A DNA stretch of 64,000 nt, taken from positions 186,001-250,000 of the forward strand of contig NZ_KB899993.1 of NCBI RefSeq assembly GCF_000378505.1, written 5' to 3'. Positions 1 through 6,020 of this stretch are shown here, in pieces. The stretch's first letter is position 1, and every line of letters begins with the position of its first letter. The position numbers were made by a program, and so were the translations under genes. Origin of the DNA: Modicisalibacter luteus DSM 23508. Lineage in GTDB: Bacteria > Pseudomonadota > Gammaproteobacteria > Pseudomonadales > Halomonadaceae. The notes below the pieces were generated by a model. The model saw nothing but the letters and a program-made list of their open reading frames with translations. It ran no database searches and was not told the DNA's origin.

Positions 1-3000
1 TCGCAATATTTAATAATGCGATGAAAGTATCCATCAAAATAGTCAGTATCTGCCAAGCGCTCAGCTTCACGTTGATCACCTACTACATAGCCAAGCTCAA
101 AGAAAAGGTGCTGTAGAGATGTTGTGCCGGTTTTGTTACGACCTATACAGAATATCTTATTTTTTTCACGTGGGGAATGTGCCTGATTTATTTTATTTAG
201 GCTAGATGTTTTTTTCCAAAAATCTATAAAGTCAAAATACTGAACATTGTCAATAGCATTTAATGGTGAAATGCGAACCATTTTGTTTCCCTTGTGCCAT
301 CCTAGCTCACGTATCATTCGACAGAATGTTCTAATTCCTTCTTGGTTTCCATACTGCCTAGAGGTGTGGCTGGACTGTTCAGCGGAAATCCTAAAACTCG
401 ACAGGTTTTCCTTTAGCATAACTAGATTTCCACTGCGTAGAATATTCATCCACGCTGCTAAATCAGCACGTCCATATATATCTTCCCCCCCTAGTAAAAA
501 AAGATTTCTTCCATAATGCTCAACTAGGCTTTTGCGGAACATAACGCACGTAGGCTCGCCAATAAAATTAATTAAGCCATGCGCATATAATGACACTAGG
601 TCTTCACCATTGATGTAAGTGTCTTTATCAAATGGGAACTGATATGCAATAGGCTTAGATTGCATAAGAGCTCCCTTTTCATCAATAATATTCCGCTGAG
701 AGCTTGCTAGTGCTGTATTCGGAGTATTATAAAATACGCTTACTAGATTCTTGACGGAGTTAATTGACAAAGTATCATCGTCATAGAGTGGTTTAATAAA
801 TTTGCCGCGCGACTCTCTTATGCATCGAGTGATGTTTTCTATCTCGCCTAAAGGTTTTTCATTCCTAAAATATCTAAGTGGCACTCTTGATGTAGAGAGG
901 TAACGCATAACAATCTCTCTAATACCATCTGTAGGGCAGTCATCACAGACGACCACTTCAAAAGATGAATAATCTTGAGAAAGTGCGCTTAGTAAGGCCT
1001 CTTCAAACCAGCGAGGCTTAAACGCTGGAATGACAATGGAAACCTCAATATCAGGTTCACTCGATCTTTTCTCTATAGAGTCATAGCCTCGTGTCGCATT
1101 TTTACCATTAGGGAGACTTAATCTTTTATCTCTTAAATCAATGCCATAGTCTTTTGAGATCTTCTTTAGCTTGTTTAATGAAGCTAGCTGGTCGAATCCA
1201 GTAAAAAAGCGCTCCTGTAGAAGCAAACGATCTTGGCGATTCGCTTTACCGACAAAGTCTTTCTCTGGGTCAACCTCAATCAGTGTGGCCTCTGGGCTAT
1301 AAATGTGTTCGCCATTGGCCCGCGCTAGGATTGTCAATTCATCATCCGCTGCATGTGACTGGTAACCTGAATAGAACAAGCTTCCATTGTACAACTTGAT
1401 TATCCAATCCCTCCTCACCATTCCAAAGGATGCTATGAGCCCATTCCATTTCCCATCATTAAATGCCAAGAGTCCCTTGCCGCTTTTTTCTAGCGTCTGA
1501 TACGCATATCGAAGCCAGTTGCGTCCTGGAAAAGCATCTTCAGCAAGATATACAATATATTTTGTTTCGATATACTTAAATGCGTCATTGATCGTCTTGA
1601 TAAAGCCTTGGCGAACAGTGTCATGTAAAAGTATGATATTGCAATCAGTTCCTGCCCGCTTTTTAAGGATACGGGCCGTTGCCAGACCTTTCTCGGTGTC
1701 AATGGTCGGCATCAATACAACAATGTCAGTTGGATCTTGTAATATGAAACTAGGCAAGTCTCGAACATCAACCATGACGGCATATTCTGAAATATGCTGA
1801 TTGGGTACTGCAATCGACGGTGGGGTAATCGCGGTCTTTGTAAGCAGAGTGGCAAAGTGGTCCCTGCTGCTCAAATTGCCTTTATATGTTGCTTCCTCTC
1901 CCGCTAAGTACTGATCGGCTCTTGTCTCATCCATTTGTGAGAGCAGTTCATATGTTAGGTCTTTCACGCCATACATGGTACGCAGAACAAACGCTAGCTT
2001 TGTTAGCTGGTTATCATTGAGTTGCGTTAACCGCTCTTGGCTGGGCAGGTATAGCGCGTCAGCAGTTACCAGTTCTGTGGCTTGGCACTGCTCCGAGAGC
2101 TTATCTTTAGGCAAACGGCTTCGATGTTGCGGCTCATGTAGGCGATAGAAGCGGAACCCATGGCGAGAAGCCCAATGGCTCATCTCCGCCAAGTTGGGTT
2201 GGCGTTCGTGACTATTCTGAAAGACTACTTTGGCCTGAATGAGCAGGGCATCTTTCAACGCTTGCCCACCATTTTCAAGAATGGCGGCGCTGTCGTTCAT
2301 GGCGTCCAAGACTAGCCAATCGATAGCGGGCAGGCCCTCGACCTTATCCAATGCAATGGTACTAAGCGGCACCTGCGTCAGAATTTGGCTGCCTTTGGCA
2401 ATGTCTTCAGGCAGGTCACTACCCTGAAGTGGCTTCAGTGAAGCGCTGAGCTTGGGATCAAGGCAGGCATAAAGTGCTCCGGGCTGCCCATTGCCCAACG
2501 TTGTATTGGGATAGTAGTGCACCCCTTCATGGTTCTTAAGCGAGGTGTCCAGTGCATGGCTAGCTGGGTCGAAAACGATCAGTTCTAGCGTCTTATTCTG
2601 GAGCATCTGACGTATTACATCGCTATGCAGCAGCTGACCACCATTGTTGATCGCAATGATCTTGCCTTTGAATTGCCAGCTGAATTCGCTGCGACCTTCT
2701 TCCAATGCCTCAGGGTGAGTAATCTCGACTGGCTGATCTTCATCCTCAAACTGAGCGATTCCCTCCTTATCCAGGGTAAGGGCAGCAGGGGATTTGCCTT
2801 CGCAGTAGCGCTGCCAGATGGCGCGCATCGCAGTGGTGAAATGCTTTGCGAAGCGCGGGCCATCACAGACTGGGGATTGCAGGAGAACATCACGCAAATG
2901 AGTACGAATAGTACTTAGGCTATCCAAGTCACTTGCCAGCTCAATGACACGGGCACGGTACTCATCCCAGCTGTTCGTTACCAGCTCCGGCATGCCGGCA

Positions 3001-4739
3001 TTGACCAGGTGAGTTGCCGAATGGCGACCGGCAAAGGTAGGCCCGGGCATTGTAACGACTGGGACGCCCATAAGGAGGGCTTCGCAGGTAGTCAGGCCGC
3101 CGGAGTAAGGCCAGGAATCGAGGGCGATATCTACTTGATTATAGGCTTCGAGAAACTCTTTATGCCCGGCAGGCCCCTCCATAATGACGCGGTGTGCCTC
3201 GACACCCTGCTGTTTTAATGTGGCGAAAATCCTATTGCAGAATCCTTGATCATCATACTGCGCTCCCTTCAGCAATAGCCTCGAATCGGGAACTGATTGA
3301 AGTAGCTGCGCCCACTCGATAAGTAAAACATCGTTGATCTTGGCTGGGTTGTTGAAGCAGCCAAAGGTAACATGCCCGTTAGCCAAGGCAGGAAGTGACT
3401 GGATATTCGGGGCATATTCAGGAGGCATATAGCAAATATAATCATCTGGCAGGCGAATCAGCTTTTCCAGATAAGCATCGTCAATGCCTGGCGGGGTTTC
3501 CACAACATCGCTGAGTAGGTAATCGATTGCCTCAAGTCCGGTTGTATTTACCAATCCACCGACCCACTTGATAATGAGCGGAGCCGGCTTGCGGACCAGC
3601 GTGTCTAGCCTATTGCCATCTCCATGACCGCTTAAATCAAACAGGATATCGATTTTATCGCTACGTAATTTATTAGCCAATGCTTCGGCATCTAAAGACG
3701 CGATAGGGTGCCAATATTGAACACACTGCTTGAGACGTGCAGTGACATGGTCATTAATATCATTGGTGGGGTAGGCTATGACCTCGAATGCTTCGACTGG
3801 CAGGGCCTCCAAAACCGTAGTAATCATTAAGCCTACTGGATGACTGCGTAAGCCTGCCGAAATCAAACCCAGACGTAGCCGTTTTCTAGACTCGGCCTGT
3901 GTCGAGTGCTCAAGATGCGCTTCGCCAGCAGAGGACAGCTTTCGACCCCAGTGAAGAATCTGCGAATGAATATACTCGGCATTGTGGGCCGGATTGTAGT
4001 GCAAGTTGAACACCAAACTCGAAAAGGCCAACACGTTTTGGCTATCCAGCGTCAAGGCTTTTTGAAAATGCTGTTCCGCTTCATCGAAGTGCCCAAGCTC
4101 AGCGAGCTTGTTGCCTACCAGTGTGTAAAGAGATGGATTTGACTTATTAATTGAGATTAGTTGATGACATTTTTCCCGCATGCCATCGAAACGTCTGGCC
4201 TTGGCGCGTATCGTAATGTAATAGGTAAGTATTTCGTCATCGTTTGGTAACAAGGCGTAAGCCTTATCAATCTCATCCACGGCTTGCAGAAACTTACCCT
4301 GACCGAAGCGGGCCCGGGCGATGCCTAGGTGTGCGTGAGCTATATCTGGATGGATAGTCAGTGCCTGCTCCAATGCATCGGTGGCCTCTTCCCAGCGATG
4401 CAGGCTGAGGTTGGCCTTGCCCAACGCTAGCAGTAGCTCGGTATCGCCGGGGTGCAAAGATAGCGCCATGTCGTACACGGCAATAGCATCTTCCGTTCGC
4501 TGGCTATGGGTGAGGCACAGGCCCAGCCACTTCCATCCGAAAGCTTGGTCGGGATAGCGCTGGGTAAGTTTATCTGCTAAGCGGCGTACCTTGGCCATTT
4601 CCCCTGATTGGTAAGCCTTCAAGAGTGTATGCTGTTGCGCCACAGGGATGGTGGAAGCATTATCGCTTTGCCGAGAAATAGTGCTCGGCGTGCTCTGGCG
4701 TGTTGAAGGGGAGAGCGACTTTCTTGACTTGCGGGACAT
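1..4739 (-). CDS. Giant TPR / GT41 / glycosyltransferase / sulfotransferase protein, probable flagellin-modifying enzyme (partial, runs off left edge)
   Basis: I translated this frame at several points and read it as one ORF from ATG 4739 to the window edge, at least 1,579 codons. Order seen: Ser/Thr-rich N-terminus; TPR repeats (about residues 40-240); GT41 O-GlcNAc-transferase (SPINDLY-like) domain (about 240-640) with a conserved His near 300 in RLGLISAGLRSHP and SGGLTTCEALLMG near 547; a degenerate FkbM-methyltransferase-like stretch (about 680-875, LVLDAMND where the family has a KiDvqG-type motif); a GT-A-like region (about 985-1150, YLAEDAFPG); a GT2 domain (about 1228-1480, VSIVIPAFKP, then YDDDTL near 1320); and a sulfotransferase-type P-loop (about 1530 on, FCIGRNKTGTTSL). 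GT41 enzymes transfer sugars to Ser/Thr. The position just downstream of fliC suggests flagellin is the acceptor (inference). The 3' part is clearly more AT-rich than the rest of the window. The C-terminus is not visible. Confidence 0.88.
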   Translation of the reverse strand, partial: MSRKSRKSLSPSTRQSTPSTISRQSDNASTIPVAQQHTLLKAYQSGEMAKVRRLADKLTQRYPDQAFGWKWLGLCLTHSQRTEDAIAVYDMALSLHPGDTELLLALGKANLSLHRWEEATDALEQALTIHPDIAHAHLGIARARFGQGKFLQAVDEIDKAYALLPNDDEILTYYITIRAKARRFDGMREKCHQLISINKSNPSLYTLVGNKLAELGHFDEAEQHFQKALTLDSQNVLAFSSLVFNLHYNPAHNAEYIHSQILHWGRKLSSAGEAHLEHSTQAESRKRLRLGLISAGLRSHPVGLMITTVLEALPVEAFEVIAYPTNDINDHVTARLKQCVQYWHPIASLDAEALANKLRSDKIDILFDLSGHGDGNRLDTLVRKPAPLIIKWVGGLVNTTGLEAIDYLLSDVVETPPGIDDAYLEKLIRLPDDYICYMPPEYAPNIQSLPALANGHVTFGCFNNPAKINDVLLIEWAQLLQSVPDSRLLLKGAQYDDQGFCNRIFATLKQQGVEAHRVIMEGPAGHKEFLEAYNQVDIALDSWPYSGGLTTCEALLMGVPVVTMPGPTFAGRHSATHLVNAGMPELVTNSWDEYRARVIELASDLDSLSTIRTHLRDVLLQSPVCDGPRFAKHFTTAMRAIWQRYCEGKSPAALTLDKEGIAQFEDEDQPVEITHPEALEEGRSEFSWQFKGKIIAINNGGQLLHSDVIRQMLQNKTLELIVFDPASHALDTSLKNHEGVHYYPNTTLGNGQPGALYACLDPKLSASLKPLQGSDLPEDIAKGSQILTQVPLSTIALDKVEGLPAIDWLVLDAMNDSAAILENGGQALKDALLIQAKVVFQNSHERQPNLAEMSHWASRHGFRFYRLHEPQHRSRLPKDKLSEQCQATELVTADALYLPSQERLTQLNDNQLTKLAFVLRTMYGVKDLTYELLSQMDETRADQYLAGEEATYKGNLSSRDHFATLLTKTAITPPSIAVPNQHISEYAVMVDVRDLPSFILQDPTDIVVLMPTIDTEKGLATARILKKRAGTDCNIILLHDTVRQGFIKTINDAFKYIETKYIVYLAEDAFPGRNWLRYAYQTLEKSGKGLLAFNDGKWNGLIASFGMVRRDWIIKLYNGSLFYSGYQSHAADDELTILARANGEHIYSPEATLIEVDPEKDFVGKANRQDRLLLQERFFTGFDQLASLNKLKKISKDYGIDLRDKRLSLPNGKNATRGYDSIEKRSSEPDIEVSIVIPAFKPRWFEEALLSALSQDYSSFEVVVCDDCPTDGIREIVMRYLSTSRVPLRYFRNEKPLGEIENITRCIRESRGKFIKPLYDDDTLSINSVKNLVSVFYNTPNTALASSQRNIIDEKGALMQSKPIAYQFPFDKDTYINGEDLVSLYAHGLINFIGEPTCVMFRKSLVEHYGRNLFLLGGEDIYGRADLAAWMNILRSGNLVMLKENLSSFRISAEQSSHTSRQYGNQEGIRTFCRMIRELGWHKGNKMVRISPLNAIDNVQYFDFIDFWKKTSSLNKINQAHSPREKNKIFCIGRNKTGTTSLQHLFFELGYVVGDQREAERLADTDYFDGYFHRIIKYC

Positions 4740-4870: not shown

Positions 4871-4895
4871 AAAAAAGGCCCCCAATATGGGGGCC
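4871..4895 (-). terminator. Rho-independent terminator of fliC
   Basis: A perfect 7-bp stem GGCCCCC/GGGGGCC with a 5-nt loop is followed, on the minus strand, by six T residues (aaaaaa at 4871-4876 on the plus strand). It lies 43 bp after the fliC stop and separates fliC from the large glycosyltransferase gene downstream. That gene may therefore depend on read-through or on its own promoter in 4740-4870; I saw no clear sigma-28 site there. Confidence 0.85.
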
Positions 4896-4937: not shown

Positions 4938-6020
4938 TTAGCCCAGCAGAGACAGTACGCCCTGCGGAACTTGGTTAGCCTGTGCGAGTACAGAAGTACC
5001 AGCCTGCTGAAGAATCTGGGCGCGGGTCATGTTGGAGACTTCGACGGCATAGTCGGCGTCTTCGATACGTGAACGTGCTGCTGACAGGTTGGTCTCGGTT
5101 GTCGCCAAATTATTGATGGCGCTGTCGAAACGGTTCTGGATGGCACCCAGGTCACTGCGCAGAGCATCTACTTCATTCAATGCACTATCCAGTCGGTCAA
5201 GGCTGCCAAGCCCGGCTGCTTGCATTTCGGCTTCAGTTTTTGGAGTAGATGTGCCATCAAACGTGACGTCTACAGTACTCGAACCTGCGCTAGCAACATC
5301 GACTGTAGCAGTGTCGTAGTAGTTTCCTTCTGTGTCACGCACGTAGTAACTATCGTCGCTACCCTTAAACACACCATCCACAGTGACAGTCGAAGAAGCG
5401 CTGCTGTCAGTGAAATTAAAGGTGGCGTCGGATGCTGCAACATCGCCGCCAGCGTCTTCAAAGCCACCTGCTTGGACGGATTTAGCGAAGCCACCAGTAA
5501 CATCGAACCCTTGCAGGCCCAACTCGTCAGAATTAATTTCCTTCAAGCTGATGTTAATAGTCTCTCCGTCGTTGGCGCCAACCTGGATGGAAAGCTCCTG
5601 ATCGCTGGCAAGTACCTTGACGCCGTTGAAGCTGGTTTCCTCTGAGATACGGTTGATCTCGTTGAGGCGCTGGCCAATCTCGTTCTGGATGGACTCCAGG
5701 TCGGAATCGCTATTGGTGCCATTCTGAGCCTGAACGGTCAGCTCACGAACACGCTGCAGGTTGTCGTTGATCTGGTTCAGGGCGCCTTCGGTGGTCTGCG
5801 CGACGGAAATACCGTCGTTGGCGTTACGCTGAGCAGTTGACAGGCCGGTGATTTGGGCTGACATGCGGTTGGCAATGGCCTGACCAGCAGCGTCATCGGC
5901 GGCGCTGTTGATGCGCAGACCGGAGGACAGACGCTCCATGGAGGTGGTCAGCGCCGATTTGGAGTTGGTCAGGTTCTGCTGAGAGATCAGCGCAGTGATG
6001 TTGGTATTGATGACTGACAT
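4938..6020 (-). CDS. fliC: Flagellin (filament subunit)
   Basis: This 360-residue protein polymerises into the flagellar filament. The N-terminal D0/D1 region (MSVINTNITALISQQNL, then LSSGLRINSAADDAAG) and the C-terminal D0 helix ending in VPQGVLSLLG are classic flagellin. The surface-exposed central part (about residues 175-275) is short and very rich in Ser, Thr, Asp and Gly, and would carry any O-glycans. A good ribosome site (AGAAGGAA) precedes ATG 6020, and a sigma-28 promoter lies about 100 bp upstream. It is flanked downstream by the giant GT41-containing gene. No second flagellin gene is visible in the window. Confidence 0.97.
   Translation of the reverse strand: MSVINTNITALISQQNLTNSKSALTTSMERLSSGLRINSAADDAAGQAIANRMSAQITGLSTAQRNANDGISVAQTTEGALNQINDNLQRVRELTVQAQNGTNSDSDLESIQNEIGQRLNEINRISEETSFNGVKVLASDQELSIQVGANDGETINISLKEINSDELGLQGFDVTGGFAKSVQAGGFEDAGGDVAASDATFNFTDSSASSTVTVDGVFKGSDDSYYVRDTEGNYYDTATVDVASAGSSTVDVTFDGTSTPKTEAEMQAAGLGSLDRLDSALNEVDALRSDLGAIQNRFDSAINNLATTETNLSAARSRIEDADYAVEVSNMTRAQILQQAGTSVLAQANQVPQGVLSLLG

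Follow-up and report, generated by a model that had tools for sequence, protein, structure and literature searches.

The giant gene analyzed here lies at the left edge of a 64,000-nucleotide stretch of the Modicisalibacter luteus DSM 23508 genome (contig NZ_KB899993.1; G000:C5:186001-250000, plus strand), hereafter the window, and starts 198 bp downstream of the flagellin gene fliC. On balance, our analysis favors the view that it encodes a soluble cytoplasmic synthase of flagellin O-glycans, that swaps of its C-terminal tail change the glycan, and that the glycan of this strain is probably sulfated. This view builds on the domain content of the protein, on a family of relatives that share its front part next to flagellin genes, on a central module that has lost most of its catalytic motifs, and on tails, most of them lower in GC, that show no association with the phylogeny of the core carrying them.

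The gene is read on the minus strand from an ATG at window position 4739, runs on beyond position 1, and stops at G000:C5:185550, its 3' 451 bp (G000:C5:185550-186000) lying left of the window. The original prediction of a single long open frame proved correct: once the sequence left of the window is read, the frame is complete and encodes 1729 amino acids (aa) without an internal stop codon. The protein carries, in this order, tetratricopeptide repeats (TPRs), a SPINDLY-type glycosyltransferase (GT) of family GT41, a module of 267 residues that we call MID, two further modules named GTA1 and GT2, and a Sulfotransfer_4 module (ST). All its Pfam matches exceed the curated cut-offs, those of the TPR families with E values down to 3e-19, and no Pfam family matches residues 660-950 and ~1001-1228. 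The domains originally named are present by Pfam or by fold, the first GT-A module by model only. A tblastn search of plasmids with the whole protein gave 158 records, none covering 80%, and a tRNA scan found none. GC content falls along the gene, from 51.6% in TPR, GT41, and MID to 45.9% in the linker, 41.8% in GTA1, 40.4% in GT2, and 36.2% in ST, compared with 54.4% in fliC and 57.9% in the window. The sharp shift in composition at the border of core and tail could be the mark of an assembly or fusion artifact that created the long frame. Such an origin is very improbable, since the frame is stop-free over 1729 codons, 70 of 89 loci, taken from many independent assemblies, have a tail of at least 150 aa behind the core, and the alignment with a relative (L054) continues unbroken from the core into GTA1.

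A reading of the giant protein as a one-off fusion had to be given up: its front of ~950 residues is a shared core, present like MID in 6 of the 14 genomes of the genus, and its tail is one of many interchangeable ones. MID was found in 114 of the 275 genomes of the family (Halomonadaceae). A sample of 369 genomes of the class contained it twice, each time in a member of this same family. Because only the top few candidates of each genome were scored in the class and order searches, absences there are soft. A named scan, of which 80 of 93 loci were kept, revealed MID in Marinobacterium, Marinobacter, Microbulbifer, Halochromatium, Alloalcanivorax, Alcanivorax, Parahaliea, Bordetella, and Azotobacter. 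Merging loci with identical MID reduced 121 loci to 89; the presence of MID in all of them is true by construction, because they were picked by MID. Modules were counted with phmmer, using segments of a few members as queries, and the counts are lower bounds. The front module was GT41 in 60 loci, GT4 in 16, and a sulfotransferase in 8; 3 further loci had a TPR-containing front without assignment and 2 had none. Tails were built from Sulfotransfer_1, _2, _3, and _4, FkbM and other methyltransferases, GT2, GT56, and Glyco_trans_1_2. Among 33 tails scanned, Sulfotransfer_3 was found in 8 and Sulfotransfer_4 in 4, some proteins having both.

Flagellin is adjacent to the gene that encodes MID or within 3 kb of it in 85 of the 89 nonredundant loci, which represent more than ten genera. 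It is encoded within 500 bp upstream and on the same strand in 76 loci, at 940-2847 bp in 5, and divergently at ~235-250 bp in 4, all of Marinobacterium; the 4 loci in which flagellin was not seen each have a contig end within 1.3 kb. The link with flagellin, first drawn from one neighboring gene, is far stronger than that gene alone would make it. As controls, we read four distantly related GT41 proteins (26-31% identical) from genomes of the family; the 3.3-19 kb fetched around them contained no flagellin, and the two with a readable motif (L197 and L199) have H-T-T there. The substrate could instead be another surface polymer or protein, with the neighborhood of flagellin being merely a hot spot where glycan genes gather. 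Such gathering of exchanged genes is described for glycosylation islands at flagellin loci (PMC4875605, in the part available), and the relatives of ST discussed below sit in other, glycan-type clusters. Yet a hot spot would have to explain 85 of 89 loci and more than ten genera, with the arrangement reversed in the four Marinobacterium loci, alongside the absence of flagellin from all four controls. Moreover, action on flagellin has been proven for another TPR-glycosyltransferase, FlmG (PMC7591256, in the part available). We consider this alternative quite unlikely, and take flagellin as the putative acceptor.

A second, larger flagellin gene left of the window (L003:3710-5556, minus strand; G000:C5:181568-181962) is broken into two open reading frames (ORFs) and N-terminal pieces interrupted by in-frame stops. 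In several related loci (e.g., L051, L056, and L063), the giant gene has an intact flagellin of ~710-800 aa nearby.

Tail type and core vary independently. In Chromohalobacter, cores that are 85-92% identical carry unrelated tails, namely, a 215-aa methyltransferase-like tail, none, GT-FkbM-ST2, or ST4 plus the 215-aa tail. Likewise, Salinicola cores that are 88% identical are followed by either an ST3-type or a GT2-ST tail. A quick core tree under a simple model was built for 59 members, of which 54 had a tail that could be named; members cut by a contig end and those lacking GT41 were left out, and five tails without a named module stayed unlabeled. Tail type required 36 changes on this tree, compared with a mean of 33.6 after shuffling (range 29-36; 68 of 1000 shuffles reached 36), and therefore carries no phylogenetic signal. 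Host genus, used as a control, required 33 changes versus 43.7 in shuffles, none of 1000 being as low. After tails shorter than 150 aa were set aside, the mean GC content of the remaining 70 was 7.5 points lower in the tail than in the core (47.5% versus 55.0%); the tail was more than 3 points below its core in 48 of the 70 and higher in 3. As far as sequences can tell, these patterns suggest that tails have been swapped between species.

The GT41 module (PF13844, E = 8e-37 in two stretches, 127.1 bits for a cut-off of 25) had been called O-GlcNAc-type. We do not retain this name, since its closest relatives in the PDB are Arabidopsis SPINDLY (4e-83) and Thermobaculum TtOGT (3e-75), far ahead of Xanthomonas OGT (~5e-45) and human OGT (~1e-38); O-GlcNAc or HexNAc chains are for the same reason not the default expectation. 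The equivalents of SPINDLY His495, Asn661, Lys665, Tyr744, and Thr749 are invariant in all 59 nonredundant rows of the family, and those of the catalytic His495 and the phosphate-binding Lys665 in 86 of 86 rows when duplicates are counted. The residues described as important for fucose transfer by SPINDLY are Tyr744, Thr748, and Ser496 (PMC9715652, in the part available). In the family, the equivalent of Ser496 is Pro in 59 of 59 rows and that of Thr748 is Leu in 58 of 59. An alignment read by eye shows Thr at this last position in SPINDLY, TtOGT, and XcOGT. Among plasmid-borne GT41 controls (2 readable of 3), Azospirillum has Thr and Methylosinus Val, and a GDP-fucose synthase gene adjoins the Azospirillum one. 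RmlB is over its cut-off in the genome (517 bits), and no GDP-mannose dehydratase (Gmd) was found above the cut-off there, the best match, at the RmlB locus, scoring 69 bits for a cut-off of 415. The name O-fucosyltransferase was rejected too, as two fucose-transfer residues differ and Gmd was not found above its cut-off. The presence of RmlB and the lack of a Gmd above the cut-off make a dTDP- or UDP-sugar a likelier donor than GDP-fucose.

MID was modeled by AlphaFold with a mean predicted local distance difference test score (pLDDT) of 91. Its top VIA-align match is the solved FkbM structure 2py6 (Z = 11.0, root mean square deviation [rmsd] of 2.7, 150 residues aligned); three other Rossmann or methyltransferase chains lie within 1 Z of it (Z = 10.1-10.5), so that the family assignment by fold alone is a near tie. 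The window's MID also matches canonical FkbM modules of relatives' tails at 84-96 bits in phmmer, the latter being recognized as Methyltransf_21 with E values of 1e-21 to 1e-23. MID itself is well conserved (41 copies, mean column identity of 63%) and falls below the cut-off of PF05050 (Methyltransf_21), with 3 of the 41 copies matching even at an E value of ≤1 (best, 0.13). The MID stretch of the window has no Pfam match at usual thresholds, and a PDB sequence search with the MID profile gave a best E value of 1. Motifs were counted in an alignment of the 89 unique MIDs with 7 canonical FkbM tail modules. Four residues of KIDIQGGE (K, G, G, and E) occur in 0 of 89 MIDs versus 7 of 7 tail modules, and its Q, like the N of DIGAN, in 1 of 89 versus 7 of 7. 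The motif-I Gly is kept in 49 of 89.

These losses led us to reject MID as an ordinary FkbM enzyme: of the FkbM-like stretch originally proposed, the fold holds and methyltransferase activity is improbable. MID is probably an FkbM-fold pseudo-methyltransferase that has lost most of the FkbM motif residues, and would act as a structural or docking module, useful and not indispensable. If it were instead a working sugar O-methyltransferase with unusual motifs, the core glycan of MID members would be methylated. Such a role would agree with the fold, with the acidic residues retained (motif-I Asp in 88 of 89, the remaining one having Asn; Asp as the acidic residue of F-[ED]-P in 89 of 89; the D of K-I-D in 88 of 89), and with the methyltransferase domains fused to enterobacterial flagellin-locus GT41 enzymes (PMC4875605, in the part available). 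It is nevertheless unlikely, because four KIDIQGGE residues are gone from every copy and Q and the DIGAN Asn from nearly all, because motif I of the window's own copy reads N-N-G, and because the tail of at least 7 family members contains an additional FkbM module of canonical type, as if methyltransferase function were not supplied by MID.

Ten family genomes match the giant protein without matching MID, and four of these encode a close TPR-GT41 protein (44-47% identity), always with the signature PYSGGLTT. We therefore rejected MID as an indispensable hub. Three of the four proteins are encoded directly behind flagellin (L193:8781-12566, L194:8675-10930, and L196:8429-10993); for the fourth (L195), no flagellin was found in 19 kb. 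The tail of L193 consists of a GT and a sulfotransferase and that of L196 is the common methyltransferase-like one, both joined straight to GT41, and L194 has no tail. L193 thus shows that sulfotransferase tails occur at flagellin independently of MID. In two further loci (L149:9845-11056 and L156:9872-11059), the member is nearly MID alone (302 and 304 aa), lies directly behind flagellin, and has after it a separate TPR protein that matches LicD (over the cut-off in L156 only), as if the fusion had come apart into two proteins.

The prediction of two GT-A modules in the tail stands for GT2, which matches Glycos_transf_2 (PF00535, E = 4.5e-24, residues 1233-1408) and whose fold has many counterparts among GT-A enzymes, one of them the TDP-rhamnose transferase RmlT (Z = 20.7). 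GTA1 has no Pfam match, and its best match in a PDB sequence search was unrelated (E = 0.29). We regard it as a putative GT-A module on the basis of a lower-confidence model and of motif-like stretches read by eye, such as the acidic YLAEDAFPG. In the tail model, pLDDT is mostly 82-97 with dips in GT2, ~75-95 in ST, and 65-85 over the first ~90 residues of GTA1, falling thereafter below 75 to 80. The model matches both GT-A halves of the chondroitin polymerase K4CP (Z = 23.5, 383 residues aligned, rmsd of 15), the VIA-align rows shown covering the GT-A modules only. A relative of GTA1, 46% identical, sits on another core (L054), and G126 matches residues 988-1209 at 46%. The C-terminal P-loop was rightly read as that of a sulfotransferase: ST matches Sulfotransfer_4 (PF17784, E = 3.6e-15, residues 1528-1728) with 56.8 bits for a cut-off of 22.8. 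The best PDB match by sequence (E = 0.11) is also a sulfotransferase. The ST motifs KTGTTSL and FILTIRDNSEQWYQSL both align with stand-alone relatives, and we take them to be the 5'-phosphosulfate loop and the 3'-phosphate motif, respectively, of sulfotransferases using 3'-phosphoadenosine 5'-phosphosulfate (PAPS). The first ~52 ST residues, including KTGTTSL, are encoded within the window, and the RD..W..S motif lies beyond its left edge.

Besides the window's own genome, 11 of 390 genomes of the order match the tail at an E value of ≤1e-15 when two candidates are scored per genome, 8 through GT2 and 3 through ST, no genome being reported with matches to two or more modules. Of the 8 GT2 relatives, four were read, and all are N-terminal modules of multi-GT proteins of 1176-1445 aa at flagellin loci. 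Three adjoin flagellin and one has fliD in between; one of the flagellin matches is weak, and three of the four loci have a DegT match. The four ST relatives read, two from this search and two from the search of family genomes with the giant protein, are all stand-alone ORFs of 212-255 aa, three of them near a DegT gene. The tail of the window's protein hence appears to be a mosaic, since GT2 is of the flagellin-locus type and ST is known from other clusters.

Next to the giant gene, L003:7305-9159 (plus strand) encodes a DegT aminotransferase and a NeuD/PglB/VioB-type acetyltransferase. The former is DesI-like, below the cut-off, and the latter is just over it (161.4 versus 160.8). The pair suggests an acylated 4-amino-4,6-dideoxy sugar, similar to the viosamine of Pseudomonas syringae flagellin (PMC3927599, in the part available). 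A flagellin locus from a different family of the same order includes a close DegT (573 bits; L173:10559-11719).

Fused sulfotransferase modules of several Pfam families occur in at least 25 of the 89 members. APS (adenosine 5'-phosphosulfate) kinase genes (cysC) were counted with a fragment of the genome's own cysC as the query, leaving out ORFs of 260 aa or more, which omits bifunctional CysNC. Such an ORF was found in 9 of the 89 loci, 7 of which have a fused or a motif-type separate sulfotransferase; in the two where none was seen (L079 and L083), the cysC ORF lacks the P-loop. Counting the motif-type separate proteins, cysC accompanies 7 of 33 loci with a sulfotransferase versus 2 of 56 without (P = 0.012). 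These separate proteins of 273-283 aa carry HGRTGTT and LNR.FR..A.SL and follow eight short-tailed members together with a hexapeptide acetyltransferase, a label given by Pfam for one protein. We did not accept them as proven sulfotransferases, since they gave no match in Pfam (2 tested), NCBIfam (2 tested), or PDB profile searches (7 aligned). The tailless giants of L080, L087, L088, L090, L097, L098, L140, and L151 end in a peptide resembling D[DE]TI[SA]..[IL]D.[LI][LM]. This conserved C-terminal peptide may be a docking site for the acetyltransferase and the P-loop sulfotransferase-like protein acting in trans.

Several observations weigh against a synthase of this kind. The tail model is of middling quality (mean pLDDT of 73; predicted template modeling score of 0.41). 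The hairpin between fliC and the giant gene (Table 1) implies that the two are neighbors and perhaps not one transcript; terminator-like sites number 4 in the region versus 1.8 (standard deviation, 1.4) in shuffles, a count that alone is not significant. The MID-less flagellin-adjacent GT41 relatives mean that MID is not indispensable. All eight genus genomes without MID have flagellin, and in the one flagellin locus read in each there was no family module beside it, which means that a genome can have flagellin without this system. As for sulfate, none of the four ST relatives read has flagellin in its stretch, all lying in other, glycan-type clusters. If fused ST modules alone are counted, cysC shows no significant association with them (5 of 25 versus 4 of 64; Fisher's exact test, P = 0.11). 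The lower P value above depends on eight P-loop proteins that are sulfotransferase-like by motif alone, and the cysC loci are not independent, five of nine being from Chromohalobacter. Finally, the cysC of the island is split over two frames (L003:6132-6566, plus strand; G000:C5:182544-182846), and this break, together with that of the second flagellin, points to a possible decay of the island in the strain studied. For the nonsignificant P value, the related loci, and the broken copy, we did not accept cysC as proof of sulfation.

The same points, namely the broken cysC, the stand-alone habit of the ST relatives, and the nonsignificant association, would also fit a flagellin that is glycosylated with no sulfate on its glycan, the ST tail being idle or acting elsewhere. 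We rate this as a less probable course, still to be kept in mind, than that of a working ST. Both PAPS-binding motifs are intact, and an intact APS-kinase domain is encoded elsewhere in the genome, in a 708-aa frame at C6:275525. The occurrence of ST modules of several Pfam families in 25 of 89 members would be hard to explain if none worked, and the cysC ORFs of L079 and L083, loci in which no sulfotransferase was seen, are those without a P-loop.

Table 1. Features of the giant gene and its surroundings in window coordinates
Feature	Position	Strand	Basis
Giant flagellin-glycan enzyme gene (proposed function)	1..4739	-	Frame and continuation to G000:C5:185550
TPR repeats, residues ~36-245	4005..4634	-	Pfam TPR families
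SPINDLY-type GT41 catalytic module, residues ~280-652	2784..3902	-	PF13844, PDB matches
MID, FkbM-fold module, residues 684-950	1890..2690	-	AlphaFold, 2py6 match, motif counts
GTA1, first GT-A-like module, residues ~1001-1228	1056..1739	-	Model and fold match
GT2, second GT-A module, residues 1233-1485	285..1043	-	PF00535
Sulfotransfer_4 start, residues 1528 onward; remainder left of window	1..158	-	PF17784
fliC flagellin, 360 aa, presumed substrate	4938..6020	-	PF00669, PF00700 (N and C domains)
Terminator-like hairpin between fliC and giant gene	4877..4895	-	8 pairs, 7 G-C, then TTTTTT

Some members of the family depart from the common plan. In L069, L070, L072, L074, and L076, a TPR and Sulfotransfer_3 front takes the place of TPR-GT41 before MID, and the tails are of methyltransferase type. 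Two members whose TPR-containing front module is unassigned are followed by a conserved protein of ~1000 aa with a pyridoxal-dependent decarboxylase domain (L122:9991-13023 and L150:10146-13136); these match each other at ~1717 bits, and Pfam was scanned for L122 only. One front module was read as ATP-grasp-like by eye and has no profile match. The common tail of 200-225 aa (L042, L044, L057, L060, L064, and others) has no Pfam match in the one member scanned and resembles a class I methyltransferase by eye (EFGSGGSTVW, GVESD, and FIHDFWNRP).

In the mechanism that we propose for the synthase, the TPR arm, a candidate flagellin-recognition arm by analogy with FlmG, would grip newly made FliC, perhaps together with MID. 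The SPINDLY-type GT41 would then add the first sugar to Ser or Thr residues of FliC, and GTA1 and GT2 would extend the chain, probably with deoxy sugars derived from dTDP-4-keto-6-deoxyglucose. These would be supplied by enzymes including the adjacent DegT aminotransferase and the NeuD/VioB-like acetyltransferase. The C-terminal sulfotransferase would move sulfate from PAPS to the glycan prior to FliC export. Exchange of tails between species would alter the glycan and leave recognition and first-sugar transfer unchanged. A wider scheme can be drawn for the whole family, with an interchangeable front, MID as a pseudo-methyltransferase hub, and a C-terminal cassette, in which cassette swaps re-program the glycan, halophile flagella are sulfated, and short-tailed members reach the same end in trans. 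We put it forward tentatively, with less confidence than the proposal for the window's gene.

Parts of this scheme have precedents, which we compare here from the available parts of the published accounts. Enterobacterial flagellin islands encode SPINDLY-domain GT41 enzymes, most with methyltransferase domains (PMC4875605). The likeness includes COG3914/SPINDLY GT41 with a methyltransferase-type domain at flagellin loci, DegT and NeuD genes, and a low GC content with horizontal exchange; the difference is that whole gene clusters are exchanged there and tails on one protein here. The text of that account has no word starting with "sulf." In Caulobacter FlmG, an N-terminal TPR domain binds flagellin and the fused GT-B glycosyltransferase modifies it in the cytoplasm before export, as we propose for the giant protein (PMC7591256). 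FlmG differs in having 596 aa and a single transferase domain, in the pseudaminic acid pathway, and is described in the part available without MID, extra GTs, or a sulfotransferase. FgtA (PA1091) of Pseudomonas aeruginosa is a flagellin-locus protein that joins sugar transfer to a phosphotransferase and in this resembles the giant protein, which would likewise combine sugar transfer with that of a further group (PMC11833859). GT2 resembles the N-terminal GT2 of multi-GT flagellin-locus proteins. With the vio and fgt genes of P. syringae, the likeness lies in genes for a viosamine-type sugar (PMC3927599), and the available parts of these two accounts (PMC11833859 and PMC3927599) do not mention TPR, GT41, MID, or a sulfotransferase. 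Arabidopsis SPINDLY, a protein O-fucosyltransferase, shares the TPR-GT41 architecture and the equivalents of His495, Asn661, Lys665, and Tyr744 (PMC9715652), and the giant family differs from it by Pro at 496, mostly Leu at 748, and a genome without Gmd above the cut-off. Halobacterium has sulfated N-glycans on glycoproteins through Agl30 and Agl31, with effects on the archaellum (PMC11980604). This is likewise a sulfated protein-bound glycan tied to the motility filament of a halophile, and it differs in being archaeal, N-linked, and made by separate enzymes.

GT41-methyltransferase fusions at flagellin loci and the horizontal exchange of islands are thus already in print for enterobacteria (PMC4875605, in the part available). 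Among the papers listed in searches of a literature collection mostly without subscription papers, none reported a sulfated bacterial flagellin, the giant family, a sulfotransferase tail, or the swapping of tails within a single protein, and none was relevant to flagellin glycosylation in Halomonas.

Variation of flagellar glycans between strains has been described largely as the exchange of gene clusters (PMC4875605, in the part available). In the family described here, this variation seems to be written into one protein, with a conserved core for recognition and first-sugar transfer and an interchangeable tail, and a degenerate methyltransferase fold seems to be reused within a glycosylation enzyme. 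The window's protein is a candidate for making a sulfated bacterial flagellin, and its family offers a testable, naturally modular system for O-glycan engineering. If the wider scheme is true, these bacteria would change their flagellar glycan by replacement of a cassette, and many of the cassettes would be sulfotransferases.

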